DNA of 64,000 nucleotides, from positions 188,508-252,507 of the forward strand of contig JAGVLO010000008.1 of the NCBI GenBank assembly GCA_020049775.1, in the 5' to 3' direction. A program made the translations under genes and the position numbers. Source of the stretch: Alphaproteobacteria bacterium. Lineage in GTDB: Bacteria; Pseudomonadota; Alphaproteobacteria; Rickettsiales; SXRF01. Below, piece by piece: positions 35,683-37,490 of this stretch (within the stretch, counting starts at the first letter, position 1; each line of letters begins with the position of its first letter). Under the pieces are notes generated by a model. That model saw nothing but the letters and a program-made list of their open reading frames with translations. It was not told where the DNA came from and searched no databases.

Positions 35683-35730
35683 GAAAATGGTGGGCCCGGG
35701 AAGAGTTGAACTTCCGACCTCACGCTTATC
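35683..35730. repeat. Left 48-bp direct repeat (displaced 3' half of tRNA-Ile)
   Basis: Identical at all 48 positions to 37443-37490. It contains the 3' half of tRNA-Ile (35688-35730, from the anticodon to the CCA end on the minus strand) plus five flanking bases. The match stops exactly at the anticodon. It is the remnant of the target site left after integration and cannot itself form a tRNA. Confidence 0.92.
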
Positions 35731-35842
35731 GAAGGCTGTAACGTCCAAAAGCTAGAAAAATCTAGCTCTTGCGACAATTTAATGCGGCAAATATACTGGC
35801 ATCAATTATCTCGGCCATCTTAACAATTGAAAGACACCTGAA

Positions 35843-37333
35843 ATGGATAAGCGTACTCTTTTATCAAATTCTACTTTTGGGAATCGCGTAGCTGAATTTG
35901 AAGGTGAAGCACTTAGTTCATATTTCGTCGAAACTGAGCAATGGAGAAAAGTTTTAGCTGGCGAGGTAGATATTATATATGGACCAAAAGGATCTGGGTA
36001 AAGTGCAATTTACTCGCTTCTTGTAAAATCTAAAGATGACCTACGAACAAAACGTAGAATAGTAATAATACCAGCAGAACATCCACGAGGCACGGCGGCG
36101 TTTCAAGAGCTTTCAGCAGACCCACCTACTACAGAGGAGGAGTTTAAGGGGTTATGGAAGCTATACTTTCTTACCTTAATAGCTGAATATCTTCGCCATC
36201 ATTTTGATGTTACAAAAACAAGCCATTCGACCGCTGCCGAAGTAATTAATATATTGATTGAAAATAATATTCTCGCTCAGGGCTCAACTCTTATAGGAAA
36301 ATTAAAAGCCGTCTTGGAGTATATGCGTAAGCGTATGCCTAAAAGCGCAGAGGGCACTGTACAAATAGATCCCGCTACCGGCATTCAAATATATACAGGG
36401 AAAATTACTTTATCAGAGCCTAGCATTGAACAACGCAAAATAGGGATAATATCTGCAGATGACTTGATTAATAAACTTAATACTGTGCTTGAGTCTGTCA
36501 AGATTACTGTATGGCTTGTATTAGATAGGCTTGATGCAGCTTTCACCGAATCATCACAACTGGAATGTAATGCACTCCGATCACTTTTTCGCGTTTATCT
36601 TGATATAGTCTCATACTCAAGAATATCCGCAAAAGTTTTTCTTCGTGACGATATATGGCGGGCAATCTCAGTTGATGGGTTTAGAGAAGCAAGTCATATA
36701 ACAAGATGTCTAACAATATCATGGAACCAACAAGCGCTGTTAAACTTAATAGTCCGGCGCTTAGTGCATAATGATGCTATTTGTACGTTTTATTCGCTAC
36801 AAAAAGAGACCGTATTGCAAGATGCAAAATTGCAGCAAGAAATCTTTTATCGAATATTTCCAGAACAGATCGATGTAGGAGAAAAACAACCAAAAACACT
36901 TGAATGGTTGCTTTCTCGAATTGCAGATGGTTCAGATCGTAGGGCTCCAAGAGAACTTATCCATCTTTTATCGGCGTCGCGCGACGAGCAGCTTAAGTTA
37001 TATGAACTTGGCAATGCGGAACCGCCGTTGGAAAATCTCTTTGATAAACAAGCAATCAAAGCTGCGCTACCTGAAGTTTCAAAAGCCAGATATACACAAA
37101 CACTTTGTGCTGAATACCCTACTTTGAAACCCTATCTTGATAAACTTGAAGGGGGAAAAACACTCCACACCGGAGATTCATTAGCTCAACTCTGGAAAAC
37201 AAACCACGACAAAGCTGTAGAAATGGCGGACAAACTTACAGAGATAGGATTTTTCCGTAAAGAAAGCACAACAAAGTATTGGGTGCCCTTTATTTACCGA
37301 GGTGCTCTGAACCTAGTTCAAGGCACAGCCTAA
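35843..37333 (+). pseudogene. P-loop ATPase (Sll1717-like) with stop at the Walker A lysine
   Basis: A 497-codon frame starting ATG 35843 is broken only by TAA at 35999-36001 (codon 53). The surrounding residues IYGPKGSG-stop-SAIYSLL show that the stop replaces the Walker A lysine (GPKGSGKS); a single AAA to TAA change would explain it. The rest is intact to 37333, including VWLVLDRLDAAF, a Walker B-like segment. It resembles the P-loop ATPase Sll1717 family; a defence role is suggested by location in a mobile islet, not proven. A TTG at 36254 could restart translation, without the nucleotide-binding motif. Confidence 0.8.
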
Positions 37334-37442
37334 TCTCCAATGAGCTTGTAAACCCCATGCAAACACAGACTGTTTAAAGCCACTTGTTAAATATTTATGA
37401 GAAGGTGGAATCTTTCAAAAATGAAGTTGGCTGGGGTTTTTA

Positions 37443-37490
37443 GAAAATGGTGGGCCCGGGAAGAGTTGAACTTCCGACCTCACGCTTATC
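37443..37490. repeat. Right 48-bp direct repeat within intact tRNA-Ile
   Basis: Same 48 bases as 35683-35730; here they form the 3' half of the complete tRNA-Ile. Because the tRNA is on the minus strand, the element lies beyond its 3' end, and this half was supplied by the incoming element. Confidence 0.92.

Follow-up and report, generated by a model that had tools for sequence, protein, structure and literature searches.

Within the window (the whole stretch of DNA analysed here, 64,000 nucleotides long), a 1.76-kb islet lies at the gene for tRNA-Ile(GAU), between two copies of the 3' half of that gene, and this raises the question of how the intervening DNA came to be there and whether it can still move. 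An earlier note, made from the letters alone, read the locus as the footprint of a site-specific integration and left two origins standing: a non-autonomous satellite that uses an integrase in trans, or a deletion remnant. The present analysis favours the remnant, and we put at about 0.7 the probability that the islet is what is left of a mobile element inserted into the anticodon loop of tRNA-Ile(GAU) by a tyrosine integrase.

Structure of the islet and its flanks

The features of the locus are collected in Table 1. The two repeats begin at the first base of the anticodon (tRNA position 35), run to the 3' end of the tRNA and continue for 5 bp beyond it; they are the sole exact direct repeat of at least 25 bp in the window, and the tRNA gene itself is intact. 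The description of the repeats in the earlier note was thus confirmed. It is the single tRNA with the GAU anticodon among the 40 tRNAs found in the genome (one of which has no clear anticodon), and a comparison with Rfam returned this tRNA together with one antisense match that did not reach the gathering score. Under the integration model, the proximal tRNA half would have been brought in by the element. The 48-bp repeat was not found a third time, either at the locus or elsewhere in the genome, and the search for other cargo between copies of this repeat, which the note had proposed, yielded nothing in this genome.

Table 1. Features of the tRNA-Ile(GAU) islet and its flanks (positions in the window)
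Feature	Position	Strand	Remark
TonB-dependent receptor gene (flank)	33642..35678	+	ends 5 bp from distal repeat
Distal repeat, attR-like	35683..35730	-	displaced tRNA-Ile 3' half + 5 bp; 48/48 identity with 37443-37490
Distal non-coding end	35731..35842	.	112 bp; no significant repeat common with other end
Sll1717-family P-loop ATPase pseudogene	35843..37333	+	497 codons including final stop; one internal stop
In-frame TAA	35999..36001	+	at Walker A lysine position
Proximal non-coding end	37334..37442	.	109 bp
Proximal repeat, attL-like	37443..37490	-	within intact tRNA gene; 48/48 identity
tRNA-Ile(GAU)	37448..37524	-	ARAGORN
GGDEF gene (flank)	37677..38747	-	

From end to end, the islet is laid out as 48 + 112 + 1491 + 109 + 48 bp. 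The 1712 bp between the repeats are AT-rich, as had been noted, with a GC content of 39% versus 52% in the window, and among 583 overlapping windows of 1712 bp the sole one at or below this value sits on the islet itself. A recombinase was indeed absent: when all ORFs of at least 40 aa between positions 35001 and 38500 were compared with an iterated integrase HMM, none matched at E ≤ 10, so that a hidden integrase, one of the findings that would have overturned the earlier reading, was not encountered. The longest ORF between the repeats, apart from the pieces of the ATPase gene, measures 75 aa, and, going by the ORF list, a transfer gene would hardly fit in. Scans for promoters and terminators gave no clear excess over shuffled sequences (7 versus a mean of 4.6 and 3 versus 1.9, respectively).

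Among 15 other genomes of the family, a close relative of the TonB-dependent receptor (46%) was found in G012 only, and the 4.9-kb stretch around it contains no 14-mer of the repeat on either strand; because of this rarity, the flank is unusable as an anchor for comparing genomes. The same rarity suggests that this flank may be accessory as well. Near relatives of the organism do exist, as UbiD proteins at 95-96% identity (P0122-P0124) indicate.

The ATPase gene of the islet is interrupted at the Walker A motif

The cargo had been described as one large gene, a view that has to be amended, since the frame is split by an in-frame TAA. Relatives cover its full length with identities of up to 66%. 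The downstream piece of 359 aa reached 136.4 bits with NF047389 (Sll1717 family), above the curated cut-off of 75, and matched PDC-M28C, a candidate defence model of PADLOC, at E 2e-20, while the relative P0002 matched NF047389 over nearly its whole length. Judged by these models, the islet gene is likely a phage defence gene. It differs from members of both families in being cut short at the predicted ATP-binding site: the stop takes the place of the Walker A lysine, a residue kept in 25 of 26 aligned relatives (chosen among 120 listed of 1688 matches), and its P-loop is therefore not intact. Apart from this stop, the frame appears normal: it departs from 4 of 116 invariant columns, compared with 0-7 for the 26 relatives when each was left out in turn, and for this reason the gene was likely broken recently. 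The stop could also be an assembly error, as the genome is represented by a single assembly with no reads. No solved structure was found by sequence for the ATPase, and no papers appeared under the names Sll1717 or PDC-M28 in the one library of literature searched.

Occurrence of the ATPase gene and its relatives

With the islet's own genome counted each time, the gene was detected once among the 16 genomes of the family and once among 343 of the order, of which 225 have a completeness of at least 90% and little contamination. Of 385 genomes drawn from the class, 7 gave a match, most of the profile being matched in only three of these seven (the own genome, G481 and G370). Since a single genome of the order has it, the gene was likely acquired horizontally, as far as its distribution can tell. 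With P0002 as the query, phage records gave no match and plasmid records three, at about 25% identity; ATPase relatives were also present on 11 viral contigs. An integrase ORF was found in 10 of the 73 ATPase loci that were fetched (62 from genomes and 11 viral), at a distance of at most 250 bp in four of them, and most of the 73 had no integrase that we could find. The HMM used had been built from the integrases of this genome and their matches, so that 10 of 73 is likely a lower bound; an earlier tblastn pass had given 7 of 73. Two loci illustrate the association: one relative (L080) belongs to an Aeromonas rivuli island at tRNA-Asn, whose own integrase lies at a distance of 1.2 kb, and another (L198) is no more than 3 bp from an integrase, on a contig that also encodes a phage-type primase. 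The ATPase family is thus carried on mobile elements at least at times, and an island origin of the islet is therefore plausible.

We also considered whether the ATPase relatives represent a recurring type of tRNA islet and rejected the idea, because a tRNA lies within 1 kb only at L080 and L112 among the 62 genome loci and in G481, which is too few; L112 is moreover a weak partial match, and no tRNA was found at L190, the one viral locus included in the tRNA scan beside the 62. In G481, an intact relative (L217; G481:C9:866000-885500) coincides with a dip in GC content and is separated by 818 bp from the 3' end of a tRNA-Met gene; no repeat and no integrase were found there, and this is perhaps an older scar of the same kind as the islet. 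Separately, the relatives L196 and L197 (IMG/VR 2541047532 and 2541047535) are located on viral contigs that resemble filamentous-phage prophages and carry a putative Zot-like ORF.

Intact islands with the same type of duplication

A scan of 802 kb around all 40 tRNAs found, the reach of which is limited to those stretches so that more distant fragments would be missed, revealed duplications of the anticodon-loop type at three of them: tRNA-Met (47 bp, copies 20.8 kb apart), tRNA-Arg(CCT) (46 bp, copies 20.6 kb apart) and tRNA-Ile. All three (46-48 bp) begin at tRNA positions 32-35. In both large islands an integrase gene directly adjoins the far repeat on its inner side, and their repeats are as perfect as those of the islet, so that the perfection of the latter does not discriminate between explanations. 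The genome contains 13 ORFs matching Phage_integrase (14 matches, two of them in one ORF). The tRNA-Arg island has defence genes among its cargo: Zorya type I genes (ZorB, ZorC and ZorD) and one for a GmrSD-type enzyme.

An integrase beside a copy of the tRNA-Ile half was found in G013, which belongs to another genus of the same family. Here, a 46-bp copy of the tRNA-Ile half ends at the anticodon-loop boundary of the islet, with an alignment two bases longer, and a 398-aa integrase with an arm-binding domain is encoded 0.2 kb inside. The tRNA-side end is on a different contig from this copy; because arm repeats are common to both ends, the two would form one island. The integrase of the tRNA-Met island (contig C6) is 52% identical to the G013 enzyme over 390 aa. 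The same duplication thus occurs at integrase-bearing islands both in this genome and, at the same tRNA-Ile boundary, in G013, which supports the reading of the islet as a footprint of site-specific integration.

These data leave little room for a chance duplication, or a plain segmental duplication of the tRNA, unrelated to integration. Such an event would have had to start at the anticodon loop, where the duplications of two integrase islands start too, and to enclose an AT-rich insert with a gene found nowhere else in the order; no supporting point was found, and we consider it extremely improbable.

Some further features of the large islands (G000 C6:57399-78234, L147 and L148; C12:95054-115697, L174 and L151) may be recorded. 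By eye, both islands and G013 have two genes in common, a small one, whose C6 copy is a DUF3768 gene, and its companion, and a 193-aa stand-alone recombinase beside the tRNA is seemingly common to the tRNA-Met island and G013.

The tRNA-Ile locus in related genomes

The repeat was compared with 54 other genomes, with at most five candidates scored in each; 4 of the 55 genomes had no match. Among the matches listed, no other genome has a second long copy on its tRNA-Ile contig, so by this comparison the arrangement does not have the look of an ancient duplication conserved among relatives; conservation in distant relatives, which would have spoken against integration, was accordingly not seen. 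The order tRNA-GGDEF-UbiD is kept in G006, G010 and G013, and the downstream side of tRNA-Ile differs among genomes. In addition to the half copy in G013, G004 has a 27-bp piece about 100 bp from tRNA-Ile, which resembles a scar, and in G015 contigs break off inside the tRNA gene, only a few bases away from the islet's boundary. On these sequences, tRNA-Ile(GAU) is a site used repeatedly in the family. An empty site was not seen in the genus, because its other genome, G001, is only 74% complete and gave no match.

Repeated use of the site, together with the accretion of decayed and active elements described in the available part of PMC5704250, would suit a leftover of a tandem array, in which an integrase-bearing neighbour of the islet at tRNA-Ile excised cleanly. 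Against this, the locus has no third repeat copy, and the islet's own loss of integrase and arms would still be required; we regard this course as quite improbable.

In G045, a genome of the same order, positions C26:10020-10075 (L047) match the left boundary of the islet, that is, the repeat end and adjoining bases, at 80%. Another kind of copy was seen at four of the 40 tRNAs (Gly-CCC, Arg-CCG, Gly-GCC and Leu-TAG; G000 C1:106151, C3:4150, C7:82775 and C10:96589; L166, L154, L176 and L165), where a 19-27-bp exact copy of the tRNA 3' end, beginning in the T arm, sits 60-151 bp downstream and the intervening DNA is predicted to form hairpins. The G004 tRNA-Ile (L007, 1374-1585) resembles these copies. 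The insert at Gly-GCC has relatives of 73-82% at C7:180317 (near tRNA-Gln) and C8:171509; in a control on the 5' side, two of the 40 tRNAs had a fragment, of another kind. Possibly, such copies reflect a dispersed element of very small size that is associated with the 3' ends of tRNAs.

No arm repeats like those of intact islands were detected in the islet

As a rule, arm sites are required by those tyrosine integrases that have an arm-binding domain. Direct arm repeats common to both ends were present in all three islands (tRNA-Met, tRNA-Arg and G013), as local alignments of 22-34 columns with scores that 0 of 300 shuffles reached in each case. In the islet, the 112- and 109-bp ends have no common repeat in direct orientation, the best score being reached by 273 of 300 shuffles, and the same was true of ends taken at 150, 250 and 400 bp (284, 271 and 266 of 300). 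In inverted orientation, a weak match was reached by 35 of 300 shuffles for the 112- and 109-bp ends, and by 82, 57 and 117 of 300 at the three larger sizes. The arm sites of the three islands were not found in the islet either, save for one weak match in six tests (the C6 site on the plus strand, with a score of 20 of 38 that 4 of 100 shuffles reach). The islet therefore shows neither mark of this island type, a distal integrase or paired arm repeats, and, since such integrases need arm sites and none were detected, they would probably act on it poorly. If the integrase was an unrelated one, its arm sites could have escaped detection through divergence or small size.

These results bear directly on the satellite of the earlier note, a non-autonomous one-gene element that depends on an integrase supplied in trans; such an enzyme could be related to that of the tRNA-Met island. 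The compact layout of the islet, the number of integrase ORFs in the genome and the similarity of the C6 enzyme to the one located at the same tRNA-Ile core in G013 would suit such an element. However, the C6 integrase sits in a tRNA-Met island, the islet's ends have no common arm repeats, no third repeat copy exists among the sequences searched, none of the 342 other genomes of the order has the gene, and a degenerate exact pattern of the core matched 0 viral contigs. There is no positive evidence for movement of the islet in trans, and we regard this origin as unlikely. Of the two origins in the note, the remnant fits better, because paired arm repeats and a third copy were not found and the cargo gene is broken. 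Some points count against the remnant as well: no trace of other island genes is left, and the neat, gene-free ends would also suit a small purpose-built unit; furthermore, the ATPase gene looks freshly broken rather than long decayed.

Discussion

If the islet is a remnant, its history may be pictured as follows. An element carrying a tRNA 3' half would have recombined with the chromosome, its own half restoring the tRNA and the original half being pushed 1.76 kb downstream. The integrase and the arm sites would later have been lost, leaving a single cargo gene, and this gene would then have gained the stop that removes the P-loop, with the tRNA still intact. The islet likely does nothing now, and the empty site could be restored by homologous recombination over the 48 bp or by an outside integrase acting on the cores.

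Among known systems, the islet is best read as a remnant of the CIME (cis-mobilizable element) kind, and it is probably immobile in cis. As far as the available part of PMC5704250 describes them, it shares with CIMEs the attL- and attR-like ends and the absence of an integration gene and, going by the ORF list, of a visible transfer gene, though both att ends are represented by the 48-bp core only, the arms not being detected. It differs in that nothing shows its descent from an ICE or IME and in that it has a single, broken gene and no detected arm repeats. The locus shows no neighbouring repeat copy, a point that bears on mobilisation in cis. With the islands collected by Islander, in the portion of PMC4383910 available, it has in common an intact tRNA, a displaced 3' fragment in the right orientation and an anticodon-centred site (class A), but it has no integrase and, at 1.76 kb, is under 2 kb. 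According to that portion, candidates of either kind are rejected by the filters, so that Islander would miss the islet.

P4-like satellites are defined by the presence of integrase and primase genes. The islet does not have this pair: an integrase is absent, and beside the ATPase pieces no ORF exceeds 75 aa. On the side of likeness, the ATPase relative L198 has an integrase as its neighbour and a phage-type primase on its contig. In the available parts of the sources, two further points are shared: the islet has a single defence-like cargo, reminiscent of satellites with defence hotspots (PMC9122126, PMC8628076), and a tRNA as the target (PMC10121019). The mini-islands of PMC6070778 are, in the part available, laboratory constructs, and the accessible portions of the literature on integrase-less or miniature tRNA islands, from the one library searched, announce no one-gene islet.

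A bolder version of movement in trans would be an integrase-free tRNA element of 1.76 kb with a single immunity gene, moved only by the integrase of a resident island, the tRNA-island equivalent of a MITE. We hold this to be slightly less likely still than borrowing of an integrase in general; if true, a whole class would have been overlooked by surveys whose criteria include an integrase and a size threshold. On the preferred reading as a remnant, the islet is a clean example of an ordinary kind in an unusually small form and not a new kind of system. It offers a view, at base resolution, of the apparent end state of a tRNA island, in which the cores are kept, the integrase and arm repeats are absent and the cargo has likely just been broken. 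Objects of this sort are excluded by Islander by design, and the genome itself provides intact islands with the same att type for comparison.
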